A stretch of 64,000 nucleotides of DNA, from NCBI RefSeq assembly GCF_000001735.4, contig NC_003070.9, positions 11,774,001 through 11,838,000 on the forward strand, written 5' to 3'. Below the pieces are notes generated by a model. That model had not been told where the DNA came from, did not search any database, and was given only the letters and a program-made list of their open reading frames with translations. Positions 3,433 through 62,085 of this stretch are shown here, piece after piece; the first letter of the stretch is position 1; each line of letters begins with the position of its first letter. Both the position numbers and the translations under genes were made by a program. Source of the stretch: Arabidopsis thaliana (lineage: Eukaryota; Streptophyta; Magnoliopsida; Brassicales; Brassicaceae).

Positions 3433-3912
3433 AGTGGCAATCGGAGATAAACTGGTTTTGTGCATCGCTGTGCCTCCGGTTCAGTGTTCTAATCTTTTGG
3501 TTTAGTTTTTTTTCAAGTATGTTCTCTTCAATCTCTTTCTTATGCTGGTTCTTTTGATTTTTTCTTGGATTTGATGCTCTTTCAGTTTTCTTTTTGCAGC
3601 AGCAAATTTCAGAGAATTCTATATGGGTTGTTCACAATCACTTAACGAACGCATTGATATACATGCACACATACATAACATACATTACATACATGATTCT
3701 TTGTTAACTTATTTGCTTGCTTCCTCATTTTCTTACTCCATTCCTTGGTTAGTCATTTACTTCGTCAGTCCCTTACGTGTGCTTACTTGTCTCCTTATTT
3801 TTCTTCTGTAATTCTTTGCTTATGTACTTGTATGCATTCATATATGCATACATTCATACATGCATATATACATATATTCATCTATGCATACACACATATG
3901 TATTCTTGCATA

Positions 3913-4261
3913 CTTCCTTGTACACATTCATTATTGCTTCTCTGTTTCTTTGATTCGTTGTTTACTTCTTTGCTTCCTTGATTCTTTGTCCGATTCTTTG
4001 CTTACTTGTTTTTCTGCCTTCATGAATTGCTTGCTTTATTTCCAGTGTCCTTGGTTTATCTTTTTACTTCATTGTGTGTTTGCTTCCTTCCTTGTACACA
4101 TTCATTATTGCTTCTCTGTTTCTTTGATTCGTTGTTTACTTCTTTGCTTCCTTGATTCTTTGTCCGATTCTTTGCTTACTTGTTTTTCTGCCTTCATGAA
4201 TTGCTTGCATTATTTCCAGTGTTCCTTGGTTTATCTTTTTACTTCATTGTGTGTTTGCTTC
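3913..4261. repeat. 174-bp direct tandem duplication
   Basis: Copy 1 is about 3913-4086 and copy 2 about 4087-4261. They are nearly identical, with one single-base insertion in copy 2. The start of a third copy follows at 4261 and then diverges. The unit is T/C-rich and contains the phrase TCTTTGTCCGATTCTTTGC. Confidence 0.85.
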
Positions 4262-4539
4262 CTTCCTTGTGTCCTTGCTTGCTTCCTTGATTCCTTGCTT
4301 ACTTGTTTGCTTCTTTATTTTTCTATCCTCAGTAACTGTCTCATTTTATCTTCCATTAAAATATGCATTTTGCTTACATAGTTCATTATTTGGTTCATTG
4401 AGCGTCTGTCAAGAAAAATTCCTTTCGATCGCGAATGTCGCTACCTCATAGAATATCTCTTTAGTGTATGTGGAATAACTGTTATCAAATAACCTTACTA
4501 TCAAGTTCTATGATCATTATTCTCTCCAATTAATTGTTG

Positions 4540-6892: not shown

Positions 6893-7511
6893 CTTCATTG
6901 GTTGCTTAACTTGTTTGTATGTTTCCTTCTTTATCACCTTACTTGTTTCATTGTTTAATTACATGCTAAACTTGTTTTCTCAGTTTTTCCTTCATTGCTA
7001 GCTTCTTTACACAACTTGCTTGCTTCCATGATTTGTTTACTTACACAATTAGAGTAATAGTGATGAAAATTTGTGTTGAACTCGGAAAATTACAACTATT
7101 TGCAACCTAAGAGTTGACAACAAATCCTTCTAAGACTTCCACAAATGAATAATGTTAGATTTCATTACTTCTCTCGCAAATCCATTCGCCTCTAAAACAT
7201 CTCTTCATTGGTTGTTTAACTTATTTGTATGTTTCCTTCTTTATCACCTTACTCGTTTCATTGTTTAATCACATGCTAAACTTGTTTTCTCACTTTTTTC
7301 CTTCATTGCTAGCTTCTTTACACAACTTGCTTGCTTCCATGATTTGTTTACTTACACAATTAGAGTAATAAGTGATGAAAATTTGTGTTGAACTCGGAAA
7401 ATTACAACTACTTGCAACCTAAGAGTTGACAACCAATCCTTCTAAAACTTCCACAAATGAATAATGTTAGATTCCATCGCTTCTCTCGCAAATCCATTCG
7501 CCTCTAAAACA
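6893..7511. repeat. 310-bp direct tandem duplication
   Basis: Copy 1 is about 6893-7202 and copy 2 about 7203-7511. They align along the whole length with a few substitutions and one or two single-base indels. The unit holds T/C-rich DNA followed by an A-rich part with CTCGGAAAATTACAACTA. The high similarity suggests a fairly recent event. Confidence 0.85.
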
Positions 7512-36902: not shown

Positions 36903-37039
36903 GTATAAATACTCGACCTTGAGGTCTAAGGAATACAAGTCATTCATTCACATATTATTGAGTTTGACACCATCGAGACTGAGACCGAGAATTAACTCGC
37001 TAGGGTTAACACACATTTAGGGTTCTGTCAGGAGCCGCC
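36903..37039 (+). promoter_or_regulatory. core promoter and leader of the F-box gene
   Basis: A TATA box GTATAAATA at about 36903-36911, followed by a leader of about 100 bases to the ATG at 37040. Confidence 0.55.
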
Positions 37040-38380
37040 ATGAAACGCAAGGACGATGACCAGGAGGACAGATCATGTAGCAGCGCAAGTAAGTTAGATC
37101 CGATCCCTCTTGATCTAAAGATGGCTACAGTGCCTACCAAATCTCATATGAAGAAGAGTCACCAAAATAAACTCGAGGAAGATGAGAAAGAAGACACAAA
37201 CCCTAGTAAGTTAGAGTTAGATTCGCTGCCTCTTGACCTAAAGATGGCGATACTGACTAGAATCCCTGCCAAGTCTCTTATGAAGTTGCGATGCGTGTCA
37301 AAGATGTGGTCTTCCATCATCCGAAGCCGAGGTTTCATTGATTCCTACTACGCTATCTCCTCGAAGCAATCACGGTTTATAGTCGGTTTGAGTAACGCTG
37401 CATTTAACGAGCCTGAGAAGCAGCTTACCTTCCTCTTCTCGTTTTCCCACGAAGACGGAGAGAAGTCTTCTTCTTCTTCTTTGGTACCCAACTTCGAGAT
37501 GGCAGTTCCCTGCAGCTTAGCTGGCCTCTCACACTCTTTGGCTTCTTTCCATGGCATTCTCGCTGTTGAAGGTAAGGTGATGTGTAACCCTAACACGGAG
37601 CAATTCACTACGTTACCCGTTGGCACCATCTTTGTGGGGTACGATCCGATTGACGATCAATACAAAGCGCTCGGCTTTGATTTTGATAAGAGATGTCATG
37701 GTAATGCTATTGGTCACAAGGTTTGGACATTGGGAGGTGGTGAAGGAATGAGACAGATTAGAGGTGACCTTGCACCTTATAGACCGATACTACTACCAAA
37801 TGTATGCATCAACGGTGTTATCTACTATGGTGCTCATACCTTATCCCAAACCAAAGATCCAGTTATTGTGTGTTTTGATGTTAGATCTGAGAAACTAAGT
37901 TTTATCACTGCACCTGCGGTTGTCCTCCAATCGGGGATGAAGTCTATACTCATAGACTACAAAGGGAAGCTAGCTTCTATTGTGAGAAACTCCTGTGGTG
38001 GTTGTATCAGCAGTTTTGTTTTTTGGATACTAGAAGACCCCAAGAAACATGAATGGTCTAGGCAAAGTTGTGATTTTCCCTACTCTCTGTGGGATTATGT
38101 TGGGAATGTCAGAATATGTTTCTTTGGCACCAACAAGGCTGGTGAGATCATTATTGCCCCAATGTTTTTGTCACGCGATGTTCGGTCCTTCTACATTTTC
38201 TACTATAATGTTGAAACAAAAACCATGAGAAGAGTTAGGCTCCGAGGAATTGGAAGCGATATAGAGTTTAGGCGCTCTTATGGATCCGAAAACAAGTTGT
38301 GTAATTGCCATGTCCGTATCGCACATCAACACGTTGAGAGTATTGCCTTTTTAAAGGATCATATAAATTTAAGAACTTGA
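37040..38380 (+). CDS. F-box protein with F-box-associated domain
   Basis: A single exon of 446 residues. The F-box is about residues 61-102: L-P-L-D-L-K-M-A-I-L-T-R-I-P-A-K-S-L-M-K, then R-C-V-S-K-M-W-S-S-I-I-R. An FBA_3-type domain follows, with G-I-L, N-P-N-T-E-Q-F-T-T-L-P, G-Y-D-P-I-D-D-Q-Y-K, V-W-T-L-G-G-G-E and I-N-G-V-I-Y-Y-G. Such proteins are substrate receptors of SCF (SKP1-cullin-F-box) ubiquitin ligases; the substrate is unknown. Residues 17-38 repeat the F-box start in degraded form, so the N-terminus carries a partial internal duplication. The family expands by tandem duplication, and an internally deleted copy lies at 39004-39120. Probably AT1G32660. Confidence 0.85.
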   Translation: MKRKDDDQEDRSCSSASKLDPIPLDLKMATVPTKSHMKKSHQNKLEEDEKEDTNPSKLELDSLPLDLKMAILTRIPAKSLMKLRCVSKMWSSIIRSRGFIDSYYAISSKQSRFIVGLSNAAFNEPEKQLTFLFSFSHEDGEKSSSSSLVPNFEMAVPCSLAGLSHSLASFHGILAVEGKVMCNPNTEQFTTLPVGTIFVGYDPIDDQYKALGFDFDKRCHGNAIGHKVWTLGGGEGMRQIRGDLAPYRPILLPNVCINGVIYYGAHTLSQTKDPVIVCFDVRSEKLSFITAPAVVLQSGMKSILIDYKGKLASIVRNSCGGCISSFVFWILEDPKKHEWSRQSCDFPYSLWDYVGNVRICFFGTNKAGEIIIAPMFLSRDVRSFYIFYYNVETKTMRRVRLRGIGSDIEFRRSYGSENKLCNCHVRIAHQHVESIAFLKDHINLRT

Positions 38381-43649: not shown

Positions 43650-43657
43650 CTAACGAA

Positions 43658-44740
43658 TAGAGATGTCGTGGTGGGTAAAAAAGTCCAGCCCTACCTAAAC
43701 CCAAAATAAACCCGCCCACCAAAAACCCAACTTTAGAAAATCCAGATGGGTTTTTGATTTAATGGATAAAACCCGAAAAAACCTGATTGTTCCGAGACTA
43801 CCCGTGGGTACCCAACTTGGTTTCTGTCAATTTCTTAGAGTTTATTTCAAGTGCTAATATACTATTATATGTATGTTGTATCTATAATTTGCTTATAAAT
43901 ATATTTTAAATTGTATTTATTTTCTGTATTACATATATATTTGATGGGAAAAAGGTTGAATTGCGTTTTTGGCGGAAAAATATTAAATTGCATTTTTTGG
44001 CGGAAAAATGTCAAATCCTTTTCTTGGTCGGAAATGTTGAATGTCGTTTTTGGCGGGAAAATGTTAAATTGCGTTTTCGGCGGAAAAATATTGAATATCA
44101 TTTTTAGCGGGAAAATGTTAAATTGCGTTTTTGACAGAAAAATGTCAACTCCTTTTTGGCGGGAAAATGTTGAATGTCGTTTTTGGCGGGAAAATGTTAA
44201 ATTGTGTTTTTGGCGGAAAAATGTGAAATCATTTTTGGCGGAAAATATTGAATCGCGTTTTTTGGCGAAAAAATTTTGAATTGCGTTTTGGCGGGAAAAT
44301 ATTGAATGTCGTTTTTGGCGGGAAAATGTTGAATTCCGTTTTGGCGGAAAAATATTGAATGTCGTTTTTGGCGGGAAAATGTTGAATTGCGTTTTGGTGG
44401 GAAAATGTTGATTGTCGTTTTTGGCGGGAAAATGTTGAATTGCGTTTTGGCGAGAAAATATTGAATGTCATTTTTGTCGGGAAAATGTTAAATCGCGGTT
44501 TTGGCGGAAAAATGTGAAAAGAAATTTGACGAGAAAATGTTGATTCACTCGAAAAAGGACTTAAAAAAAACTCGTGGATACGCATAACCCAATGAGATAA
44601 ACCCATATGGGTTTTATTTATTTGGGTACCCAAAAACATTTTAAATCTGTGTTTTTTTCCAAAAAAAATAGATCTATGGCTTAAAATTTTATGTGGGTTT
44701 TGGGTATCCAGCGGGTTTTAACCCATCATTAACATCTCTA
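43658..44740. mobile_element. hAT-type element carrying an E2F-like minisatellite
   Basis: 1083 bp. Terminal inverted repeats TAGAGATGTCGTGGTGGGT and TAGAGATGTTAATGATGGGT agree at 9 leading bases and then in patches. They are flanked by 8-bp near-duplications CTAACGAA (43650-43657) and CTAACAAA (44741-44748). Subterminal parts are rich in GGGTTTT and its complement. The centre is the minisatellite at 43943-44540. No transposase; the frames in this area are readings of the repeat. Confidence 0.8.
43943..44540. repeat. ~27-bp minisatellite of E2F-like sites
   Basis: About 22 units of TTTTTGGCGGGAAAAT plus a spacer that alternates between GTTGAATTGCG and ATTGAATGTCG types, giving a ~53-bp dimer in the right half. 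Seven units contain the exact core TTTTGGCGGGAAAA, and about seven more contain GGCGGAAAA without the third G. The core fits the E2F consensus TTTSSCGS. Confidence 0.88.
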
Positions 44741-44748
44741 CTAACAAA

Positions 44749-47078: not shown

Positions 47079-47681
47079 TCAACCTCTATACAATGGAGAC
47101 CGTTGTTGAAATATCATCTTCGAGACTCGAGATTGCCGGAAAACCTTGATCGGACTCGGAAAATTCCAGCCTTTACCCTTCCCGGTCGCCGGAACCGGAA
47201 CCGGAGAAAATCCAAATTCTCCGGCGACCGCAACGGATCTTGATTTCTTCATAATAGCCGGTTTAGTATCTCCTCTGTTTCCCATAAAAATTCTCCAAAA
47301 CGACGACGTTTTCTTACTCCTACCATGATCCAAACCGGAATCAATAACCGAATCCGGTTTAATCGGGATCGCCATAGATTTCGATCTCCGAAACGCCGGT
47401 TCACATTCAATCAAACTCGCGACTCGGCCCACCGATCCAACGCCGGATATATTAAAACTGATATCTCCGGCGAAGATAGAGAACGACGAGGAAGACGAAG
47501 AAGACGAAGGAGAGAAAGATACGGCGGCGCGTGAGCTACACGAACAAGGAAGATCGTGAGCACAATCTGGACAAAGAGAAGAGAGACGTTCGTGGAGACA
47601 AAATGGACAAACGCCCCCACCGCTAAAATAACCGCGTTTTGAAAAGTGTTTTGAACATTGTGAAAAACCATCTTCGTCCAT
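47079..47681 (-). CDS. small OCTOPUS/DUF740-like protein with N-terminal Cys motif
   Basis: A single exon of 200 residues from the ATG complementary to 47679-47681. The N-terminus has C-S-K-H-F, then G-G-V-C-P-F-C-L-H-E-R-L-S-S-L-C-P-D-C. This resembles the C-x2-H...G-x-C-P-x-C-L-x-E-R-L motif at the head of OCTOPUS/DUF740 proteins, which sit at the plasma membrane in phloem cells. The rest is basic and Ser-rich, with S-F-W-R-I-F-M-G-N and a tail R-V-S-K-M-I-F-Q-Q-R-S-P-L-Y-R-G. It is much shorter than OCTOPUS itself, so membership is by motif only. A TATA-like TTTATAAAAA lies about 90 bp upstream (47769-47778). Probably AT1G32690, function unknown. Confidence 0.75.
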   Translation of the reverse strand: MDEDGFSQCSKHFSKRGYFSGGGVCPFCLHERLSSLCPDCAHDLPCSCSSRAAVSFSPSSSSSSSSFSIFAGDISFNISGVGSVGRVASLIECEPAFRRSKSMAIPIKPDSVIDSGLDHGRSKKTSSFWRIFMGNRGDTKPAIMKKSRSVAVAGEFGFSPVPVPATGKGKGWNFPSPIKVFRQSRVSKMIFQQRSPLYRG

Positions 47682-48261
47682 GTTTTTGCGTTTTGAAGAT
47701 TCAGAGAATTTTCTTCTTTCTTCAGTTTCTCGGAGTTTGAAGAAGTGAAAGAGAGTCGAAAGAGAGAGTTTTTATAAAGGCTCGTGTGTTTTAATTACGG
47801 TTAAATTATTACGGTGCGTTGCACTTAAACACACAGAATTAGCTCATAAGGTTGATGGTTATTTACGTTTGTGCCATCATCAATGGAACCATTCAGTTCA
47901 TTCACGTGTGGCATGACTTTGGAAACGACTTCTCTTTCCTCTAGTTATTTATGAACATATAAATCGAACCAAATTGAATTTGATTCAAAAATTTAAACGA
48001 ATCTGAATTGAATTTTTTCTATACTTTTCATTTTTAAAAAAATATATGAATGCTGTCAAAAAAAAATATACATATATATATATGAATTATTATTATTTAT
48101 TATCTTTTATATAACCAGAAAATCTCAAATCATAACTCATAATAATCTCATAACATGTGGAGAGCAAGAAACTTTTATTTAAAACATCCAGTGTTGAACC
48201 AATGATAGAAATTGAAATGAAATAATTGATACTACAGTGTATATGTGTAATTACACCAAAC
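47682..48261. other. upstream region of the DUF740-like gene
   Basis: Promoter and leader of the minus-strand gene up to about 47900, with an ACGTG core near 47904. Then AT-rich DNA. Confidence 0.45.
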
Positions 48262-61440: not shown

Positions 61441-62085
61441 CTAATTTTATCGATCTATAAACACATTCGCAGCAAATCAAAGACATACTTGTCCATTAAT
61501 GATTGTCCAAGTAGTCCAGTCCATATGGTCATCAAATGACTCACATGGTAGTTTCATACTAATACATAAGTTTATACATAAACAATAAACGTCAATCCAA
61601 AGTACATTATCCATGTCTATTTGACCATTTATCCACATGTGTATAGACATGTTGAGACAATTTTATCGAGTTATAAACACATTCACAGCAAATCAAAGAC
61701 AGACTTGTCCATTAATGATTGTCCAAGCAGTCCAGTACATATGGTCATCTAATAAGTCATATGGTAGTTTCATACTAATACATAAGTTTATACATGAACA
61801 ATAAACATCAATCCAAAGTACATTATCCATGTTTCTTTGACCATTTATCCACATGTATATAGACATGTTGATACAATTTTATCGAGATATAAACACATTC
61901 GCAGCAAATCAAAGACATACTTATCCATTAATGATTGTCCAAGCAGTCCAGTCCATGATCATCTAAAGACTCACATGATAGTTTCATACTAATACATAAG
62001 TTTATACATGAACAATAAACGTCAATCCAAAGTATATTATCCATGTTTCTTTGACCATTTATCCACATGTGTATAGACAGTCAGT
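61441..62085. repeat. three tandem 216-bp repeats inside the MULE
   Basis: Units begin near 61441, 61657 and 61873 (marker ACACATTC at 61461, 61677 and 61893) and are nearly identical; unit 3 has a small deletion. They contain AATCAAAGACATACTTGTCC and TACATAAGTTTATACAT phrases. No coding capacity. Confidence 0.88.

Follow-up and report, generated by a model that had tools for sequence, protein, structure and literature searches.

What is a dense array of E2F-like sites doing inside a transposon, and is it kept for the host or for the element? E2F controls entry into S phase, and the 64,000-nucleotide stretch of Arabidopsis thaliana DNA analysed here (the window) holds such an array on its plus strand at 43943-44540, where repeat finding, core scans and segmentation delimit 22 to 23 tandem units, each some 26-27 bp long and centered on TTTTGGCGGGAAAAT. 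Tandem Repeats Finder (TRF) places a period of 27 with 21.3 copies at 43950-44515, a scan allowing up to 3 mismatches in the 15-base core counts 22 copies, and wraparound segmentation, in which edge units are counted, gives 23 units. Cores within 2 mismatches of TTTTGGCGGGAAAA number 20 in the 64-kb window, 19 of them within the array and seven exact, against a shuffle expectation of 0.78 and a maximum of 5 (100 shuffles). Strict TTTSSCGS sites number 13 on the plus and 8 on the minus strand inside the array, and 3 and 2 in the remaining window. Because seven of the eight minus-strand sites fall in units that also have a plus-strand site, 14 of the 23 units carry a strict site, seven of them on both strands. 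The first-pass annotation had described about 22 E2F-like sites, seven with the exact core, inside a hAT-type element; TRF, the core scans and the element's ends and duplication agree with that description, exactly seven exact cores are counted, and the array is confirmed as real.

The same annotation had proposed that the array grew as a dimer of about 53 bp. Two main spacer types are indeed present, but they alternate over a short stretch only and leave no clear signal at lag 2. TRF scores the array at 592 for a period of 27, 549 for 53 and 623 for 106, and spacer identity within it is 0.614, 0.685, 0.672, 0.675 and 0.697 at lags 1 to 5. Over family A as a whole, to which the element belongs, lag 3 gives the top spacer identity (0.711); with lag 2 not prominent and lag 3 highest, dimer growth is a weak account of the array. 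A 200-aa open frame crosses the array on the minus strand at 43865-44467, and further frames hold others. These are taken as repeat artefacts, the unit seeming simply to be free of stop codons there.

The array occupies positions 309-881 (0-based) of a non-autonomous hAT element of 1,083 bp on the plus strand at 43658-44740, delimited by its ends, its target-site duplication and related places genome-wide. Its hAT hallmarks are an 8-bp duplication that is 7/8 identical between CTAACGAA on the left (43650-43657) and CTAACAAA on the right (44741-44748), together with imperfect terminal inverted repeats at 43658-43677 (plus strand) and 44721-44740 (minus strand). Both termini carry TAGAGATGT and are called short because they agree at only 22 of their first 40 positions; short terminal inverted repeats are the norm among hAT elements. 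Being short, non-coding and present in many copies, the element is also MITE-like. With its left part as query, 32 matches were obtained from 28 scored candidates, the window copy counted. Among the 19 family A loci, 14 are flanked by duplications that agree at 7 or 8 positions, nine of them perfect; one of the other five has a 6/8 duplication and four lack a clear left end. In L009, L010, L019 and L023 the left end of the array copy is lost or replaced, and in L009, L010 and L023 the block immediately left of the array is retained, as would follow from an exchange or deletion of parts.

A view of what the element looks like without its array is provided by nine places that match its left part and are not among the array matches. 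The exact 12-base core is absent from all nine. Both ends were found in five, four of which have perfect 8-bp duplications; a clear right end was not found in L048, L051, L055 and L056. These five two-ended relatives match the window element over the left 157-238 and right 65-107 bases, and neither the core at up to 3 mismatches nor a TTTSSCGS site occurs in any of them. The left part common to L048, L049, L050 and L052 lies at 43662-43899 (plus strand, query positions 1-238), and the right part common to L049, L050 and L052 at 44649-44740 (plus strand, query positions 988-1079). A domain search covering three of the nine relatives (L048, L050 and L052) returned matches far above the cut-off in two, Dimer_Tnp_hAT (E 1.5e-27) with hAT-like_RNase-H (E 1.4e-29) in L050 and Dimer_Tnp_hAT (E 6.4e-28) in L048, whose right end was not found, and a single hAT domain match below the cut-off in L052. 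Since these relatives lack the core and two of them encode hAT domains, the array is dispensable for mobility, and the non-autonomous lineage probably acquired it.

Searching the genome (119.66 Mb, seven contigs) with the array region as query gives at least 49 matches, with the best 40 of 168 candidates scored; as the best 40 candidates were scored in each similarity search, copy totals per family are lower bounds. The 60 array loci read comprise 19 of family A, 35 of family B, five of family C and one further locus. The families presumably correspond to those named SIMPLEHAT1, SIMPLEHAT2 and SIMPLEGUY1. Units are mostly 26-27 bp long in A, 28 bp in B and 27 bp in C, with the consensus sequences TTTTGGCGGGAAAATGTTGAATTGCGT, TTTTGGCGGGAAAATCACGGGTTTACGT and TTTTGGCGGGAAAATATGATTTTACGG, respectively. 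The core and a 27-28 bp period are common to the three consensus units, and the spacers differ, matching at 6 of 12 letters between A and B, 5 of 12 between A and C and 8 of 12 between B and C. Family B has hAT-type ends, TAGGGGTGTCAAAATGGG, unlike those of A, and in 18 of its 20 checked loci the two copies of the duplication agree at 7 or 8 positions (14 perfect). Family C looks Harbinger-like from its GGCCCTGTTTGTTTG-type ends and a CTA duplication seen by eye on both sides in two of its five loci; set against the PIF/Harbinger pattern of a 3-bp duplication with GGCCCTGTTTG-type ends, the CTA pairs are seen in L036 and L039, L031 and L044 show no clear pair, and L045 has no right end. The further locus, L027, is another kind of element with an A-like array at 76% identity, whose right end reads TAGGGATGTCAAAATGGAT on the other strand and which shows no clear left end. 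Thus, the array is not peculiar to one element, as had been supposed at first, nor is its unit confined to one element family: the window element is one family copy, and arrays of this kind were read in two hAT families, a Harbinger-like family and one further locus.

The abundance of the site itself is in keeping with this spread. Genome-wide, TTTSSCGSSAAA occurs at 1,811 sites (49 in the reversed control), 86% of which (1,561; reversed control 3) are TTTGGCGGGAAA, and the exact 14-mer occurs 1,184 times (control 0). The 60 array loci, flanks included, contain 498 of the 1,561 TTTGGCGGGAAA sites, and clusters of three or more contain 88 of the first 100 listed C1 sites. Exact cores in both orientations are found in none of the 19 family A loci and in three of the 35 family B loci (flanks included). 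Two opposed TTTGGCGGGAAA sites 90 bp apart at C1:6236734-6236835 form an arrangement unlike the head-to-tail arrays.

The core and the spacer record different histories depending on which copies are compared. Units were segmented with equal weight at all positions (381 in A, 614 in B and 109 in C); incomplete units and those less than 55% identical to the consensus were left out of the divergence test, which was run on the three families, C comprising five loci only. Between random pairs from different copies the core/spacer divergence is 0.56 (95% interval 0.50-0.62) in A, 0.45 (0.38-0.50) in B and 0.75 (0.58-1.02) in C, a contrast that spacer indels could inflate by raising spacer divergence. 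Between nearest pairs, which serve as a proxy for post-insertion change and are selected for few differences, the ratio is 1.08 (0.93-1.83, n=325) in A, 0.90 (0.75-1.04, n=536) in B and 1.29 (0.46-1.76, n=93) in C, and all three intervals span 1. Random drift of the core had been named in advance as a result that would speak against the E2F reading; it is seen between nearest copies, where core and spacer drift at the same pace, but not between random copies, where the core diverges less. Mismatches between the consensus units cluster in the spacer, clearly so for A-B (101 of 20,000 shuffles) and A-C (279 of 20,000) and not clearly for B-C (3,767 of 20,000).

Resolved by base class, nearest pairs of family B have a somewhat better conserved core at A/T positions (core/spacer 0.57, 0.31-0.97) and a core that differs more than the spacer at CpG (1.69, 1.15-2.10); random pairs of B show little core-spacer difference at CpG (0.92, 0.72-1.07), and in random pairs of C the core is less conserved than the spacer at G/C positions outside CpG (1.46). 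Departures from consensus at the five core G positions, counting all units, are mostly changes from G to A (A, 242 of 319; B, 241 of 306; C, 85 of 92); the exceptions are position 7 of the A core and position 4 of the B core (0-based), where these changes fall short of a majority. Deamination of methylated C on the opposite strand would give an excess of this kind. Our reading of these patterns is that selection may have acted on the site while the transposons spread, with no upkeep by the host after insertion.

The sequence of events that we favor, and consider to have about an even chance of being correct, begins with a non-autonomous hAT element that would have acquired an array of tandemly repeated TTTGGCGGGAAA, a good E2F/DP site that reads on both strands. 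The array would occupy the interval that holds transposase remnants in relatives with matching ends, and at least two further transposon families have what appear to be similar arrays. The units, those of the window copy included, are most likely bound in dividing cells by E2F-DP, alone or together with RBR, and such binding may once have aided the spread of the element, for example through chromatin opening or S-phase timing of mobility. After insertion the sites would no longer be maintained by the host, and the copy, silenced and presumably methylated, would decay by C-to-T change, leaving a locus that today is probably a mainly passive, partly decayed E2F/RBR docking patch. A wider proposal can be advanced more tentatively: E2F-site arrays may be a selfish component that unrelated transposon families have in common, with a core selected on the spreading transposon, perhaps via mobility tied to S phase, and decaying neutrally once inserted.

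Common ancestry of the arrays could explain part of the shared core free of any selection, and in its full form this idea makes the array a minisatellite with a chance E2F-like core, of one origin, passed between families and bound only incidentally. That nearest copies differ as much in the core as in the spacer speaks for passive hitchhiking, the 8 of 12 spacer letters at which B and C units match fit common descent, and the genome-wide abundance of a single E2F variant fits hitchhiking as well as it fits the other readings. However, the divergence of random copies is concentrated in the spacer in families A and B, as are the consensus mismatches for A-B and A-C, and we regard passive hitchhiking as a rather doubtful account.

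Alternatively, the arrays could persist because array-bound E2F-RBR helps the host to repress the elements. In a review, RBR is reported at transposons, most of them with E2F motifs, with misexpression of some transposons when it is lost (PMC7956360), and siRNAs of SIMPLEHAT2, presumed above to be among the array-bearing families, are Pol IV-dependent (PMC6753494). Against such a role in silencing, nearest copies keep the core no better than the spacer and repression would not favor the spread of an element, making it an unlikely reason for the arrays. A separate candidate link to host methylation was set aside. The REM/siren methylation motif TTTTGCTTATNTTTTGCTTAT, as given in PMC12270911, has three matches in the 69 loci scanned, at 3 mismatches, against a shuffle mean of 0.2 that is a lower bound, as it counts windows starting with TT only. 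One of these matches adjoins the array in L011, around 1500. An exact half-site, TTTTGCTTAT, lies shortly before the array in five of the seven family A loci checked, L001 and L009 being the exceptions.

A third possibility is that the host has domesticated this particular locus as an S-phase enhancer or a replication origin, as the density of the sites and the role of E2F as an S-phase regulator might suggest. The surroundings, as far as open frames describe them, offer little encouragement. The nearest gene-like open frame on the left, of 456 aa and F-box-like by its letters (37010-38380, plus strand), stops about 5.3 kb short of the element; that on the right, of 230 aa (47079-47771, minus strand), stops about 2.3 kb from it. 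Both point towards the element, which is therefore on the 3' side of each and outside their promoters. As nearest copies of the family also keep the core no better than the spacer, domestication seems very improbable. Shorter open frames lie between these two neighbors, and elsewhere in the window tandem repeats are found at 3906-4270 (174 bp x 2.1, 97%), 6893-7511 (312 bp x 2.0, 95%) and 61443-62079 (216 bp x 3.0, 92%).

Finally, other hAT elements carry subterminal repeats bound by their transposase, and the fixed orientation of the arrays (both orientations in none of the A loci, though in three of the B loci) would suit such a role, but it can be set aside as extremely unlikely because the core is absent at up to 3 mismatches from the five two-ended array-less relatives, four with perfect 8-bp duplications, and present in a Harbinger-like family that is expected to use another transposase.

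Deep constraint on the core set against neutral-like recent divergence makes it possible to tell, from sequence, whether a site serves the transposon or the host. If most consensus sites lie in transposon arrays, these may draw E2F and RBR off genes, or transposons may use them to time their activity. That transposons belonging to several superfamilies have multiplied E2F sites in Brassicaceae is reported in PMC12595863, and the E2F-type sites inside the hAT element described here agree with the published reviews on this point, which the first-pass annotation had noted for Brassica. According to further papers, transposon sites are bound in vivo by E2Fa (PMC4110626), the share of Arabidopsis E2F sites in transposons is up to 85% (PMC4110626) or 73% (PMC7956360), transposons hold about a third of chromatin-bound RBR (PMC7956360), and SIMPLEHAT1, SIMPLEHAT2 and SIMPLEGUY1 are listed together as over-represented among methylation-variable transposons (PMC4413256). 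That Arabidopsis transposons have spread E2F sites, and that E2Fa and RBR are found at them in vivo, is already on record in reviews.

In the Brassicaceae system of Henaff et al. (2014, Plant J 77:852), as reviews present it, E2F consensus sites are multiplied inside MITEs much as they are here; the MITEs belong to hAT, PIF/Harbinger and other groups, Arabidopsis is included, and E2Fa binding is reported. Dense tandem arrays of 27-28 bp and a core-versus-spacer decay test are, in contrast, absent from these review accounts. The RBR-bound Arabidopsis transposons of PMC7956360 likewise carry E2F motifs, and no array is named in section 8 of that review, which describes them; nor was a description of these tandem arrays found among the open-licence papers searched. 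The array in the window is real but an instance of an already known phenomenon, to which the present analysis adds the anatomy of tandem arrays across families, their array-less coding relatives and the contrast in decay between core and spacer.
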